A stretch of 54,026 bases of DNA from positions 1 to 54,026 of the forward strand of contig JAITJZ010000088.1 of assembly GCA_031278655.1 (NCBI GenBank), given 5' to 3'. Source of the stretch: Bifidobacteriaceae bacterium. Its GTDB lineage: Bacteria; Actinomycetota; Actinomycetes; Actinomycetales; WQXJ01. Positions 1 to 26,651 of the stretch are shown piece by piece. Within the stretch, counting starts at the first letter, position 1. Each line of letters begins with the position of its first letter. The notes beneath the pieces are model-generated. The model was not told the origin of the DNA. It ran no database searches and saw only the letters and a program-made list of their open reading frames with translations. The translations under genes were made by a program, and so were the position numbers.

Positions 1-70
1 AGGCGGCGCATAAGCCCTGGTCGCGCGCGGGGGGCCGACACGGGCGCGGCGCCGGCGGCCTGCGCCAGGG

Positions 71-120
71 CATGTAAGTCCGGTCAAGTTGCGCGGCGGC
101 GAAAGTGACCGGGGTTAGCC
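71..120. repeat. Degenerate copy of the CCGGTCAAGTT...TGACCGGGGTT hairpin repeat (family B)
   Basis: aagtCCGGTCAAGTTgcgcggcggcgaaagTGACCGGGGTTagcc; same pattern as the copies at 25255 and 25423. Confidence 0.55.
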
Positions 121-523
121 ACAGGGCCGGGGCGCGCCGCGCCCGCCGCAGCCTCCATTGCCCAGGTGCCGAGCGCCTTGCCCGACTCGTCCGCTTCGAG
201 CCCGGGCGGCCGTCCGGGGTCAACTCCGCGGCGCGGGCCGCCGGCCCGTCAGGGGCCGCCAGAAATGATCGGCCTGTGGATGACGCCCCGGCATGTCGGC
301 CCACCCGGTGCCAGGCCGGCCGCCGCCGGGCGCCGCGTGCGGTAGACTGCCATCCGGCTGTCCAAAAGGGCGGCCAAATTCGCGTGCTCCCAAGCCTGGC
401 CCTGGCGCCAGGTGTGGGCGGACTCGGTCCGGGCACCCGCCCGGCTTCCTTCCCGCGGCAGCACCAGGCGCTTGACCAGCCAACACGGGCTGCGAAGGCG
501 AATAACCGAGAGGACAACCAGAC

Positions 524-3354: not shown

Positions 3355-3912
3355 ATGATCGCTGATGTGTTGAAGGACGCCGGGCGTCGGATGGATCGGT
3401 CGGTTGAGAACGCCGCCGGTGAGTTCCAGGCGATTCGCACCGGCCGCGCCAACAAGGCGCTGTTCGACCGGATCGAAGTCGACTATTACGGGACGCCCAC
3501 GCCGCTGCAATCGCTGGCTTCGATCGCGGTGCGCGAGGCCCGCACGGTCGCCATCACGCCCTACGACCGCACCGCCATGGCCACCATCGAGAAGGCCATC
3601 CGCAACTCTGATCTGGGCGTCAACCCATCGGATGACGGCGATGTGATCATGATCAACCTGCCGGAGCTGACCGCTGAGCGGCGCAAGGAGTACGTCAAGC
3701 TGGCGCGCACACGCGCTGAGGAGGGCCGCGTCAGCGTCCGCCAGGCGCGCCACAAGGCCAAAGAGGCGTTGGCGCGGATCCTCAAGGACGGCGAGGCCGG
3801 CGAGGACGATGTCCGCCACGCCGAGAAGGAACTCGACACCTTGACCAAGTCTCACATCGCCAAGGTCGACGCCTTGTTGTCGCACAAGGAAGCCGAACTG
3901 CTTGAGGTCTGA
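3355..3912 (+). CDS. frr: Ribosome recycling factor
   Basis: Length 185 aa; FQAIRTGRANKALFDRIEVDYYGTPTPLQSLASI; synteny. Confidence 0.98.
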   Translation: MIADVLKDAGRRMDRSVENAAGEFQAIRTGRANKALFDRIEVDYYGTPTPLQSLASIAVREARTVAITPYDRTAMATIEKAIRNSDLGVNPSDDGDVIMINLPELTAERRKEYVKLARTRAEEGRVSVRQARHKAKEALARILKDGEAGEDDVRHAEKELDTLTKSHIAKVDALLSHKEAELLEV

Positions 3913-4814
3913 TGGCGGCGCTCACACCTGAGTCTCCGGCGCCGCCCGCCAAGGCGCCTGGCAGCGGCCGCGATTTGGCGGTGGCGGTGCCGACCGCGCT
4001 CGGTTTGATCGTCTTGCTCCTGGCCAGCGTCATTTTTGGGCCGTGGCCGCTGGTCGGCTTGGTGGTGGTGGCCTTGGCTTTGGCTCTGCGCGAGTTGACT
4101 CAGGCGCTGGCCCGCGTCGGCCTGCGCGTGCCCTATCTGCCGCTGGTGGTGGGCGCCGTGTTCACGCAGTTGGCGGCCGCGTGGTCGGGTCCGCCAGGCG
4201 TGGTGGTGGGGATTTTCTTGACGCTGGCGGCGGGTTTGGCTTGGCGAGTTTTGGAGGGCGAAAGCCGCCCCGCGCCCGATGCCGCCGGCCCGGTTAGCGC
4301 TAACACGGGGGGTTTGGTGCAGGACCTCTACGCCACCGCCTTCACCACCGTTTATCTGCCGACCTTGGCGGCGCTGGTGGTTCTGCTCGGCTTCCTGCCG
4401 GACGGGCGGTGGCTGGTGCTGCTGTTGGTGGCGGTGCCGGTGGCCTCTGACACCGGCGGCTACTTCGCCGGCTCCGCCTTCGGCAAACACAAACTGGCCC
4501 CCAGGATCAGCCCCAAGAAGACCTGGGAGGGACTGGCCGGGTCGGTCCTGCTGGCGCTGGTGGCCGGGGTTGGCGGCATGGCGCTGATGGGCCGGCCGTA
4601 GTACTTCGGCGCCGCCCTGGCGGTCTTGGGCGCGCTCGCGGCGACCCTCGGCGACCTGGCGGAGTCATTGCTCAAACGGGCCATCGGCATCAAGGACATG
4701 GGCAATCTGCTGCCGGGCCACGGCGGTGTGCTCGACCGCGTGGACTCGATCCTGATGACGGCCCCGTTCTTCTACGCGGTCATAACGCTGTTCGGGAACG
4801 AGGTCTTCGGATGA
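3912..4814 (+). pseudogene. cdsA: Phosphatidate cytidylyltransferase, interrupted by an in-frame TAG at 4599-4601 (possible sequencing error, mutation or readthrough)
   Basis: ORFs 3912-4601 and 4626-4814 are in the same frame; the signature SPKKTWEGLAGS lies before the stop and [38 protein letters not shown] after it; ATGA overlap with rlmN. Confidence 0.9.
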
Positions 4815-5935
4815 CGCCCGCCGCTCCCGCGGAGGCGACCGCGCGGCATCGGGCAACCAAACCGCCCCGGCACCTGGCCGACCTGACGCCGGACGAGCGC
4901 GACGCCTGGGCCGGCGAGCTGGGGCTGGCGCGAATGCGTGTCCGCCAGGTGGCGCGGCACTACTTCGCGCGGCTGGAGCGGCGGGCGGAGGCGATGACCG
5001 ACCTGCCCAAGGGCGGGCGCGGCGAGTTGGTGGCCGGGCTGCTGCCCGAACTGCTGACGAGGGCCGGGCGGCGGACGGCTGACGGGGGCGCCACGGTCAA
5101 GACCGTCTACCGCTTGTTCGACGGCGCGCCGGTCGAAACTGTGCTCATGGGTTATCCGGGGCGGGCCACTGTCTGTGTTTCCAGCCAGGCCGGCTGCGGC
5201 ATGGCTTGCCCGTTCTGCGCCACCGGCAAACTCGGGCTGCGGCGGAATCTGTCGGCCGGGGAGATCGCCGAGCAGGTCCGCCTGGCGGCGGCGGAGGTGG
5301 CGGCCGGAAGCCTGGGGCCTGGCTCGGCGCGGCGGCTCAGCAACGTTGTCTTCATGGGCATGGGCGAGCCGCTGGCCAATTACCGGGCCGTGGTGACGGC
5401 GGTCCGCGCCATCGTCGCCGCCCCGCCGGCCGGTTTCGGCATTTCGGCGCGCGGCCTGACGATCTCCACCTGCGGGCTGATTCCGGGCATGGAACGCCTC
5501 GCGGGCGAGGGCCTGCCCCTGCGCCTGGCCGTCTCCCTGCACGCCCCGGACGACGAAGCCCGCGACCGGCTGGTCCCGATCAACCGGCGTTACGGCGTCG
5601 AGCCCACCGTGGCGGCCGCTCATCGCTATTTCCAGGCCACCGGACGGCGAGTCTCGATCGAATACGCGCTCATCCGCGATATTAATGACCAAGGGTGGCG
5701 GGCGTCCGCCCTCGCGCGGCTGCTTGGGCGCCACGGGACCGGTTGGGCGCATGTCAACCCGATCCCGTTGAATCCGGTGGCCGGCTCGATCTGGACGGCC
5801 AGCCGCCCGGCGGCGCAGGCTGAGTTTGTGCGCCGGCTCGAGGATGCGGGATTGACGGTGACTTTGCGAGACACTAGAGGGCAGGACATCGAGGGCGCCT
5901 GCGGACAGTTGGCGGCCAAGGAGGTTATGAACTGA
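4811..5935 (+). CDS. rlmN: 23S rRNA (adenine-C2)-methyltransferase, radical SAM
   Basis: CPFCATG radical SAM motif, [11 protein letters not shown]. Confidence 0.95.
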
Positions 5936-15780: not shown

Positions 15781-15810
15781 AGGACTGATTCCCGCATGAA
15801 TCGCGGTCCT
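15781..15810 (+). promoter_or_regulatory. Imperfect hairpin in the rpsO-pnp intergenic region
   Basis: AGGACtgATTCccgcatGAATcgcGGTCCT. Confidence 0.4.
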
Positions 15811-15979
15811 CGGTAGTGGCTTCCGTAAGCGCGGCGCGAGGCGCCCTGTTCTGGCCGACCGGGCCAGACGGCATCGGGCATAAACGGCCCCGGCGACCCG
15901 GCGTTTACGTGAGCCTCGATCGAAGACCGCCCGGGAACGCCTGGCTCTGACGAACACAGAGCGATAAAGGAGGGCACCC

Positions 15980-22113: not shown

Positions 22114-22173
22114 GAGTGGTCAAATTGACCACTCAACGCGGTTTTGGCCCTCGAGTGGTCAATTTGACCACTC
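22114..22173. repeat. 60-bp unit copy 1: two 21-bp palindromes GAGTGGTCAAWTTGACCACTC
   Basis: Palindromes at 22114-22134 and 22153-22173; the whole unit is repeated at 22273. Confidence 0.95.
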
Positions 22174-22272
22174 GCCCCAGGGCCGCCCCGGACGGCCCGA
22201 AACCCAGCCACTTGTCTGACCTGCGGAAACGCTGAGGCCTGGCCGGGCGGCATCGGGCAATGGCTGGCTGGG

Positions 22273-22332
22273 GAGTGGTCAAATTGACCACTCAACGCGG
22301 TTTTGGCCCTCGAGTGGTCAATTTGACCACTC
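22273..22332. repeat. 60-bp unit copy 2 (identical)
   Basis: Palindromes at 22273-22293 and 22312-22332; same 60 bp as copy 1. Confidence 0.95.
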
Positions 22333-23226: not shown

Positions 23227-25209
23227 ATGAAGCAGCCGCCCGACGTCGCCAAACTGCTGGCGACGGCGGTCGAAAAACTGGGCGGACGGCATCGGGCAGG
23301 CCAAACCGAAATGGCCGAGGCGGTCTGGTCGGCTTGCGAGCGCGGCCGTCACCTGCTGGTGCAGGCGGGCACCGGCACCGGCAAATCGCTGGCCTACCTG
23401 GTCCCGGCCCTGGCCTACGCGGCCCAAGCCGGGCAGCCGGTGGTGGTGGCGACGGCGACGCTGGCGTTGCAGCGTCAGATCGTGGATCACGACCTGCCGC
23501 TGGCGCGGGCGGCCGTCGAGCCCGCCGCGGGCCGCGAACTGGCCGGGGCGGTGGCCAAGGGGCGCCACAACTATGTCTGCCGGCACAAACTGGCGGGCGG
23601 CTACGGCGACGAGGACAGCGACCTGTTCGACCTGGTGGATGGCGCGGGCGCGGCGGCGGCCTGGCCGGCGGCGGTCAGCCTGACGGGCTCGCCGCTGGCC
23701 GAGGAGGTCGGGCGCCTCAACCGCTGGGCGCGCCGAACCGCCACCGGCGACCGCGACGACTTCCCCGGGGGCGTCTCAGCGGCGGCCTGGCGGCAGGTGT
23801 CGGTGCGCTCGGCCCAGTGCCTCGGCGGCAAATGCCCCCTGGTGGGGGACTGCTTCGCGGAGGCGGCGCGGGCGGCGGCAGGCCGGGCGGACCTGGTGGT
23901 CACCAACCACGCCATGCTGGCGATCGACGCCGCCGGGCGGTCGGTGCTGCCGGAATGGGGCGCACTGGTCATCGACGAGGCGCACAACCTGGTCCAATCC
24001 CTGACCTCGACGCTGACCGCGAGCCTCGGCGCCGAACAGGTGGCGGCGGCGGCCGCGCGCGCGGGGCGGGTCGGCTGCGAGGCCGCGGACCTGGTGGCGG
24101 CCGGGTCGGCGCTTGAGTCGGCGCTGGCCGGGGCCCCGGTGGGACGCCAGGCCCCCGGCATGGGCGAGGCCCTGACGGCGGCGGTCGGCCAGGTCAGGGC
24201 GGCGGCGCGGGCCGCGCTCAGCCAGGTGATGACGGCCGGGGCGGAAGGCGGCGAGCAGTTGGGCGGCGCCGACGCGGCGGCCAGGCAGCTGGCCTCGGCG
24301 GCGCTGGAGGAGGTGGCCGAGACGGCTCGGCGGCTGGAGGATGAGGCGGGCGGCGACGTCCGCTGGATCGGCCCCTCGGCCTTGGGCCCGGTCAGCCTCC
24401 AGGCGGCCCCGCTGGACGTGGCCGAGCGCCTGCGCGCCACCGTCTTGGAGCCGGCCCCGGCGGTGATGACCAGCGCCACCTTGGCTTTGGGGGGCAGCCT
24501 GGAGCGGGCGGCCCGGAGCTTCGGGTTGTCCGATGACGAGTGGGACGGCATCGACGTCGGCTCGCCTTTCGATTACGGCCGCCAGGCGATCTTGTACCTG
24601 CCCCGGGACTTGCCGGCCCCGGGCCAGGGCGACGCCCATTGGGCGGCTCAGCACGCCCGCCTGCGGGAACTGATCGAGGCGTCGCGGGGAGGGGCCTTGG
24701 GGTTGTTCACCTCGCGCCGGGCGGCCGAGGCCGCCGCCGAGGCGCTGCGCCCCGAACTCGACTTCGCCATCGGCGTGCAGGGCGAGAAGTCCCTGCCGGC
24801 GCTGATCGAAGACTTCACCGCCGAGCCGGAGGCGTGCCTGTTCGGGACCATCTCCCTGTGGCAGGGGGTCGACGCCCCCGGCGTCACCTGCCGCCTGGTG
24901 ACGATCGACCGGCTGGCCTTCCCGCGCCCGGACGATCCGGTCATGTCGGCTCGCGCCGAAGCCGCCGACAAGGCCGGCGACAGCGGCTTCATGGCGGTCT
25001 CGGCCGCGCACGCGGCCTTGATGTTGGCCCAGGGGGCCGGCCGGCTGATCCGCTCCGCGGAGGACCGCGGCGTGGTGGCGATCCTCGACCCGCGCATCGC
25101 CACCCGGCGCTACGGCGAGTTCCTGGCGCGCTCGCTGCCGCCGATGTGGCGCACCAGCGACCTGGCCGTGGTCCTTGGCGCGCTCGCGCGCCTGGCCGCC
25201 CAAGCCTGA
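23227..25209 (+). CDS. dinG: ATP-dependent helicase, DinG/YoaA (XPD-like)
   Basis: QAGTGTGKSLAYLVPAL Walker A; VIDEAHNL DEAH box; four Cys Fe-S region CLGGKCPLVGDCF. Confidence 0.9.
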   Translation: MKQPPDVAKLLATAVEKLGGRHRAGQTEMAEAVWSACERGRHLLVQAGTGTGKSLAYLVPALAYAAQAGQPVVVATATLALQRQIVDHDLPLARAAVEPAAGRELAGAVAKGRHNYVCRHKLAGGYGDEDSDLFDLVDGAGAAAAWPAAVSLTGSPLAEEVGRLNRWARRTATGDRDDFPGGVSAAAWRQVSVRSAQCLGGKCPLVGDCFAEAARAAAGRADLVVTNHAMLAIDAAGRSVLPEWGALVIDEAHNLVQSLTSTLTASLGAEQVAAAAARAGRVGCEAADLVAAGSALESALAGAPVGRQAPGMGEALTAAVGQVRAAARAALSQVMTAGAEGGEQLGGADAAARQLASAALEEVAETARRLEDEAGGDVRWIGPSALGPVSLQAAPLDVAERLRATVLEPAPAVMTSATLALGGSLERAARSFGLSDDEWDGIDVGSPFDYGRQAILYLPRDLPAPGQGDAHWAAQHARLRELIEASRGGALGLFTSRRAAEAAAEALRPELDFAIGVQGEKSLPALIEDFTAEPEACLFGTISLWQGVDAPGVTCRLVTIDRLAFPRPDDPVMSARAEAADKAGDSGFMAVSAAHAALMLAQGAGRLIRSAEDRGVVAILDPRIATRRYGEFLARSLPPMWRTSDLAVVLGALARLAAQA

Positions 25210-25254
25210 CGCCCCCCGTCGCTCCGGGCCGCGTTCTGGAACCGAACCGCGCAC

Positions 25255-25303
25255 GCAAGCCCGGTCAAGTTCGCCTCGGGGCAACTTGACCGGGGTTGAC
25301 TGC
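25255..25303. repeat. Hairpin repeat family B, copy 2
   Basis: aagCCCGGTCAAGTTcgcctcggggcAACTTGACCGGGgttgactgc; 12-bp stem. Confidence 0.9.
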
Positions 25304-25422
25304 CTGGCGTGGGCCGGTAACCGCTCGCCGCGCCTTGAACGGCCCCGGCCGCGGGGCTCTGACCAGCGCGAACGCCGTTGGCTTCGCCCCTGTGGAGCGG
25401 CGCGGCCCCCGGGGGCGCGCAC

Positions 25423-25471
25423 ATAAGCCCGGTCAAGTTTGCCTGGCCGCGACTTGACCGGGGTTAACTGC
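25423..25471. repeat. Hairpin repeat family B, copy 3
   Basis: ataagCCCGGTCAAGTttgcctggccgcgACTTGACCGGGgttaactgc; 11-bp stem. Confidence 0.9.
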
Positions 25472-25481
25472 GGGGGTCGGT

Positions 25482-26450
25482 TCAGCCGAGGCCGCCTTGG
25501 GACTGCCAGAAGGCGCGATTGGCCGCGGTGATCTCGTCCCAGAGGGCGGCCAGCTGGGCGGTCCATTCTGGCGAGCCTGGCTCGGGGATCACGCCGTCGC
25601 GCCAGCCGGGGGCGTCGACGTAGATTTCCGGATCGACCACCGCCTGAGACGGGTCGTGGTCCTCCTGGCGTTGGGCGGCGGCATCGGCGGTGTGCGCTTC
25701 GGTGTCGAAGTTGGGGCACACAGCCAGGGTCGCGCGCAACTCCGCCGCCGATGCCGCCGGGTCGATCAGGGCCGCCGGTCGCGTTTGCCAGGAGTCGGCC
25801 ACCGGCGGTTCGGGGTCTCGCACGCTCAGGCCCTGCTCGCGGGCGCAGCGCGTCCATGTCAGCGTGGCTTCGACGATGGCCTCCTTCTGCCTGAGTTCCT
25901 CGTCGCGTTCAAACAGCCAGACGGGCGGGCGGTAGCCGGTCTCAGCGGCGCAGGCGGCGAAGGCCTCGGAGTGATCGACGCCGCCAACGACCAGCCAATC
26001 GCCGCTCTCCTTGCCGGCCGGGGGGTTGGGCAGACCGGCGCTCTTGGTGTCCTCGCTGACGCTGGCGAGGCAGGCGCCGCCGTCCGCGAAGCAACCGACG
26101 TAGGACTCGTCGGTGTCCATGCGGACCTCGAGTTGGCCGTCCTCGCGCGTCACCGCGACGGCGGGCGCGCCGCCCTCGCTGAGGCAGGCGGCCATCGCCT
26201 CAGCGGGTTGGATTTCGGTTGGCGCGGGCTCGGCCGGCGGCGCGCTGGCGCCGGCCCCAGGCGGGCTCGGGCTTGGCAGCGACGCCACGTCCTCGCCATC
26301 CGACTGGTCGCAGCCCGCCAGCCCGGCCAGCGCCATCGCCGCCGCGCCAGCGGCGATCGAGCGCCAAACCCTTCGCACCGCCAGCCGACTCGCTTCCAAC
26401 GACCGGCCCGCGCCGACCGGCCCAGTCCGCTCACCCGCCATCTGACGCAT
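25482..26450 (-). CDS. Putative lipoprotein of unknown function
   Basis: AAGAAAMALAGLAGCDQS lipobox; ATG at 26450-26448. Confidence 0.7.
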   Translation of the reverse strand: MRQMAGERTGPVGAGRSLEASRLAVRRVWRSIAAGAAAMALAGLAGCDQSDGEDVASLPSPSPPGAGASAPPAEPAPTEIQPAEAMAACLSEGGAPAVAVTREDGQLEVRMDTDESYVGCFADGGACLASVSEDTKSAGLPNPPAGKESGDWLVVGGVDHSEAFAACAAETGYRPPVWLFERDEELRQKEAIVEATLTWTRCAREQGLSVRDPEPPVADSWQTRPAALIDPAASAAELRATLAVCPNFDTEAHTADAAAQRQEDHDPSQAVVDPEIYVDAPGWRDGVIPEPGSPEWTAQLAALWDEITAANRAFWQSQGGLG

Positions 26451-26651
26451 TATATCAGGCGGAATCGTCGAAGTTGGGCCCCCGGCTTCGCCGCCGCGGG
26501 GGCGGTGATCGGGGTCTTGGTCGAACGTCACCGCGGGTAGACGGCATCGGGCGCGGGGAAAGGCCAAAGCGGCCAGGCGGGAGGCAGCCCAAGGTGATAT
26601 GTTGCCAAGCGGACAAGCAAAGCCGCTACCCACCAGAAAGGGCTACATCAC

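Follow-up and report, generated by a model that had tools for sequence, protein, structure and literature searches.

Rows of hairpins with a midway box, a form of composite intergenic repeats, downstream of dinG and at other sites in Bifidobacteriaceae genomes

Two similar hairpins in the same orientation follow the dinG-like gene of a Bifidobacteriaceae MAG, and the question that they raise is what kind of sequence such a pair represents and what placed it there. The locus was studied in a window of 54,026 nucleotides, i.e., the whole stretch of DNA analysed here, which belongs to an assembly (G000) of 2.73 Mb in 167 contigs, 92.65% complete. On the left of the hairpins stands the dinG-like gene (23227–25209, with Pfam helicase domains) and on the right a minus-strand ORF (25482–26633), without Pfam match, followed by EF-G. 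By dinG, the closest named relatives are MAGs of the Bifidobacteriaceae (isolates Nc350_bin167 and Cd354_bin95); judging from the way in which isolates are named and from a published study of Bifidobacteriaceae in termite guts (PMC11707648), the host and its relatives probably come from the termite gut.

The features of the window are collected in Table 1. An earlier note, made from the letters alone, had proposed paired hairpins after dinG, 168 bp apart, and this was confirmed with both cores far above chance (in the whole window 0.03 matches are expected for the left arm and 0.00 for the right arm). The stems of 11–12 bp that it had assigned to them proved too short, as the hairpins of the dinG row and the one on the rpsB side have imperfect arms of about 21 bp in a full palindrome of 53 bp; the loop is variable in sequence, as had been claimed, but its length is nearly always 11 nt. 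Folded as single-strand DNA, the two dinG-row hairpins and the rpsB-side copy gave z values of −6.7, −4.4 and −3.1, respectively. The latter copy is indeed present at the window start, but it is not simply degenerate, since it belongs to type B, a separate and well-populated subfamily in which the second arm is AAAGTGACC and the unit measures 147 bp. The palindromes at 22114 (PAL) are as they had been described, doublets of GAGTGGTCAAATTGACCACTC in units 159 bp apart, and their kinship with the dinG-row hairpins holds in build: two directly oriented hairpins on either side of a near-constant spacer, and a box close to the middle of the unit. This box and the constancy of the unit length, both left out of the earlier note, are in our judgement the more informative features. 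In the dinG row, the box lies 85 bp from the centre of the left hairpin and 83 bp from that of the right one, and the spacer shows a pairwise identity of 73–94% with the type-A spacers at C86, C88 and C135, the core-to-core spacers being 134–135 bp long.

Table 1. Hairpins, spacer and boxes in the window
Feature	Position	Strand	Description
Type-B hairpin	70–122	+	core 80–112; upstream of rpsB; part of a type-B unit precedes at 1–69
PAL hairpin 1	22114–22173		two self-complementary 21-mers; 60 bp; z −6.9
Midway box of PAL	22217–22231	+	TGACCTGCGGAAACG, exact; within PAL spacer
PAL hairpin 2	22273–22332		159 bp from PAL hairpin 1
Type-A hairpin 1	25251–25303		53 bp; core CCGGTCAAGTT-N11-AACTTGACCGG at 25261–25293
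Spacer between the type-A hairpins	25304–25418		homologous to the 167-bp type-A spacers at C86, C88 and C135
Midway box of type A	25360–25374	+	TGACCAGCGCGAACG; 2 mismatches to TGACCAGCGGAAACG
Type-A hairpin 2	25419–25471		core 25429–25461; orientation as hairpin 1, 168 bp away

Searched genome-wide, the hairpins form a dispersed, intergenic, high-copy and paired family. Copy counts rest on pattern searches and sampled stretches: the core CCGGTCA-N19-TGACCGG (14 fixed bases, with a length of 33 bp fixed among the copies) occurs 38 times in G000 and 0 times in the backwards control, and a fuller pattern, with 3 mismatches allowed, gave 29 forward matches against 0. Type A (AAGTT/AACTT) forms pairs 167–168 bp apart, type B (AAGTT/AAAGT) pairs 146–148 bp apart, and at two further loci CCGGTCA-core pairs are found at 157 bp. 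Another hairpin, H1 (GTGACATAACCCCGC...GCGGGGTTATGTCAC), which follows the build common to PAL and the dinG row, often precedes type B and repeats up to four times at 135–137 bp (once 146), and the PAL family shows two to three repeats at 158–159 bp. With one 621-bp row as query, 70 local matches were obtained. All the copies examined in this genome are intergenic, mostly as tandem pairs. The earlier note had held that few copies elsewhere and no compensatory stem changes would speak against its reading; the copies are many, and compensatory changes within the family did not rise above shuffles, so that half of this objection stands. Between species, instead, the stems differ in sequence while the palindrome and the geometry are kept. 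An exact search of GTDB r220 contigs, from which the genome itself may be absent, and of viral contigs gave no matches.

The contig of the window begins inside a type-B unit, and rows of this kind explain the breaks of these MAGs at repeats. In the congener G005, the one type-B copy lies at a contig end (C181), with the same flanking module as at the window start and a different adjacent gene; the contigs of the two genomes break at the identical base of the type-B unit (window position 1 and L112 5409), a sign of repeat-caused assembly breaks. Two other observations concern the rows of G000. An IS-like insertion, with ends beginning TGTCA[AT]GTCTC, splits the loop of a PAL hairpin in L262 (C125, ~3810–5440) and L258 (C62, ~3230), leaving half-palindromes on both sides; and an ORF of 375 aa between two type-A arrays of C88 (L042 4698–5825, minus strand) has a weak restriction-endonuclease-like Pfam match (MTES_1575), below cut-off.

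The midway box, close to the centre of the unit, is a brief sequence that reads CCGCAGGTCA or its complement; in congeners its consensus extends to TGACC[TA]GCGGAAACG. Allowing at most one mismatch to TGACCTGCGGAAACG, we counted 120 matches in G005 (2 in the backwards control), 50 in G004, 47 in G003 and 53 in G013, which is another genus of the family (0 in each of these three controls); G000 has 11 matches. By match score alone, the box in types A and B of G000 is not above shuffles, and its position in them is consistent, though the copies are related to each other. The distances from the private hairpin to the box are fixed, at 44, 64–65, 75 and 85–86 bp on the left and 41, 51.5, 71–72, 82–84 and 94 bp on the right; the 64/72 layout is found in three species, each with a stem unrelated to the other two, and several stems have the 75/83 layout. 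These distances lie near 10.5-bp steps, with P ~0.06 per side at the level of classes, and one family of G009 (60/68) is off phase. A strict helical phasing of all unit lengths was rejected, as 123, 128 and 182 bp are not multiples of 10.5; phasing is therefore claimed only for the hairpin-box distances, where a step of about one helical turn is suggestive, a lead rather than a result. The 15-mer of the box, exact or with one mismatch, was also seen in terminator-like hairpins of other Actinomycetales (L348, L356 and L361), which sit just downstream of apparent tRNA ends; the origin of the box may thus predate the rows.

As a search pattern, the arms GGTCAA...TTGACC were too unspecific outside G000 and G002. 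De novo inspection of congener samples revealed in G002 the palindrome GACCCCAGTGG-N12-CCACTGGGGTC, with 31 copies there and 0 in nine further congeners; all its adjacent like pairs are 159 bp apart. A second hairpin of the same genome, GGTCAAAGT...ACTTTGACC, at 157–158 bp, alternates with the first inside shared rows, in which the unlike hairpins are 157.5–158.5 bp apart. Hairpins of different kinds can, in fact, follow one another within a row while the spacing stays the same. In G005, rows of CTACACTTCTC hairpins at 157–158 bp carry up to six successive boxes; these hairpins (158 bp) are found in both G005 and G003, and G005 also has a 180-bp family. At 136 bp, we found the CTCCCCGAAGC family in G009 and the AACTGCGGG family in G003. 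Within families, spacer lengths are 125 (7/7), 113–115, 134–135 and 98–99 bp, although spacer identity is 66–98%. A form of 123 bp with CTAG-like ends occurs in G003 and G004, and a similar one in G017, another genus: the first hairpins are equal in size and the distance is 44 bp in both, with stems GGAGCGTGGT and GGACGCCGGT, respectively. The unit is an imperfect hairpin of ~53–60 bp plus a near-constant spacer with the box near its midpoint, present in head-to-tail runs of one to six; box and geometry are common to species (and to two genera in one related form), whereas the stems are species-specific.

Positions are not shared in the same way. An array after dinG was found in none of the eight congeners with readable sequence there (two of them for only about 200–260 bp), and EF-G directly follows dinG in G002, G004 and G008; this presence/absence comparison at the orthologous site, which the earlier note had proposed, is one between species. 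The 383-aa ORF on the right of the row is also missing at the dinG/EF-G position in these three genomes, and G001 has near dinG a stretch 69% identical to it. Other tandem repeats, of ~52–57 bp, lie downstream of dinG in G005 (L209/L313) and in G003 (L207). Among the neighbours of the G000 rows and of 67 box/array loci of five congeners, no convincing common gene was found. A link to gene function was discarded, as the row neighbours are unrelated to each other and mostly housekeeping genes. Rows are intergenic, in all orientations, and at different places in different species.

On balance, we favour with moderate confidence the reading that the dinG row belongs to a superfamily of mobile composite intergenic repeats with rapid turnover in Bifidobacteriaceae, probably of the termite gut. 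Since the units are dispersed, with stems private to a species, a shared geometry and no shared positions, a non-autonomous mobile repeat fits best, and we infer that the rows are non-autonomous mobile DNA; of the earlier note's interpretation, what holds is a dispersed family of hairpins that are intergenic, high-copy, paired and missing from the dinG site of the congeners. A putative DNA-processing enzyme, supplied in trans, would read the box on duplex DNA along with the shape of the hairpin, the latter as a cruciform or a single-strand hairpin, and would copy units into new intergenic sites. Rows would lengthen through tandem copying or unequal recombination, stems would drift along with the enzyme of each species, and the length could stay constant because hairpin and box have to be kept together, possibly on one favoured face of the helix. 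Our searches found no mobilising enzyme, and neither fixed element ends nor target-site duplications were seen for types A and B; moreover, strict length constancy is also expected of a working binding site, which counts against the mobile reading. The stronger proposal, that the rows form a distinct class of mobile or recombining unit defined by geometry rather than sequence, in which each species has its own hairpin at helical-turn steps from the conserved box and a putative enzyme reads hairpin shape and box on duplex DNA, is tentative and rather doubtful.

The alternative that survives best, although we regard it as unlikely, is that the arrays are used by the host: a nucleoid, supercoiling or looping protein would bind the hairpin dyads and the box on duplex DNA, and recombination would spread the useful rows. 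This would account for unit lengths that are kept while sequence diverges, for a box conserved between species and for distances (left 44, 64, 75, 85; right 41, 51.5, 72, 83) near 10.5-bp steps. However, the P value of ~0.06 per side and the off-phase family weaken the last point, row positions differ between species, stems are private to species, and box matches swing from ~11 to 120 among genomes of similar size.

It is still less probable that the rows are transcribed structures, i.e., terminators, mRNA stabilisers or non-coding RNAs with repeated hairpins. The hairpins are strong, and the box sequence recurs in the tRNA-downstream terminator-like hairpins of other Actinomycetales, but no bias towards gene ends was seen among the 23 rows whose neighbouring genes could be called on either side, of which 13 are tandem, 6 convergent and 4 divergent, and on this ground the terminator reading by orientation was rejected. 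No Rfam match fell on the rows, the only one in the window at the gathering score of Rfam 15 being an Actino-pnp RNA at 15802–15931 (RF01688, 54.3 bits). Apart from the main hairpin, RNAalifold detected no structure in common, so that a conserved RNA structure of whole units was discarded as well; covariation not above chance, together with no extra conserved RNA structure, speaks against an RNA function.

The earlier note had suggested a REP-like hairpin with a REP-associated tyrosine transposase (RAYT), and classical REP/BIME sequences spread by a resident RAYT would indeed be hairpins with internal mismatches, intergenic and in high copy. The only Y1 transposase found in G000, RAYT-like, lies at C135:35196–35519 (L101 1384..2094), 4 kb from one hairpin pair. 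Nevertheless, the repeats that border this gene, GGGGACGGTCCC, are different ones, and a search for PF01797 gave no match in G005, G003, G006 and G007, though G005 (with its 120 box matches) and G003 are rich in boxes and rows; RAYT was accordingly rejected as the cognate enzyme. In G000, at its completeness of 92.65%, which means that a second gene could be missed, no RAYT gene was found between inverted copies of the CCGGTCA hairpin. The REP/BIME literature describes a tag, inverted pairing and RAYT features (PMC2817692, PMC3733652). In the aligned copies, no GTAG (GT[AG]G) or CGTC tag was found at the palindrome foot, where GCAYGYAAG/GTAACC and GGTTAGCTGC stand instead, and no BIME-like alternating palindromes were seen, as the pairs are direct and evenly spaced, in units running head to tail with homologous spacers. 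We therefore consider this explanation very improbable. As a separate observation, AAATGGGGACGGTCCCATTT repeats flank the C135 transposase, and long palindromes with GGGGACGGTACC are abundant in the G009 sample. A purely passive origin, in which an old repeat is duplicated in tandem and drifts with neither enzyme nor use, agrees with the relatedness of copies within families and with arrays of 2–6 units, but hardly deserves credence given the dispersal to dozens of sites, the near-constant lengths at 66–80% identity, the equal spacing of unlike hairpins and the unrelated stems in identical geometry.

Among known systems, integron attC sites were excluded, as the R boxes RYYYAAC/GTTRRRY were not found at the base of the hairpins; type A is a near miss (GTTAGCT, GTTACGT), and stem ends are CACAG/CTGTG in G002 and TGTCCG/CGGACA in G009. 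As at the ends of IS200/IS605 elements, a short non-coding stretch lies between two directly oriented hairpins, and in this respect MITEs and non-autonomous IS200/IS605 elements resemble the rows; here, however, no ends in common with a transposon were found (none common to types A and B were seen on inspection of their flanks), and neither fixed ends nor a target duplication was seen. The neisserial intergenic mosaic elements (dRS3/RS) are units bounded by short palindromes in mosaic rows; as usually described, they are like our rows in having palindrome-delimited units, and to our knowledge they have neither a midway box nor a constant unit length. The BOX elements of Streptococcus pneumoniae, compared by description and not by sequence, are likewise modular intergenic rows, with an inner module tandemly repeated between different end modules (PMC3049150), whereas here it is a unit of hairpin and box that repeats, with hairpin types that can replace one another while the spacing stays fixed. 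Nearest in kind are REP/BIME/REPIN sequences, which share short, imperfect palindromes that are intergenic, in high copy, clustered and species-specific in sequence. They differ in that the rows described here have no GTAG/CGTC tag, direct pairs, a near-constant spacer and a midway box, and that no cognate RAYT was found for them; the BIMEs studied in PMC2817692, by contrast, have inter-REP segments that differ substantially in length and are not homologous to each other. A search of the open-access literature found no paper describing this hairpin-box superfamily. Hairpin-box rows are a form of composite intergenic repeats absent from the family libraries searched.

Sequence is what identifies most families of intergenic repeats. 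In the rows described here the constraint looks geometric, as unit length, layout and box persist although the hairpin sequence changes between species, and this gives a starting point for finding what moves or reads them. The prediction is that these Bifidobacteriaceae would possess a protein that reads both the hairpin and the box.
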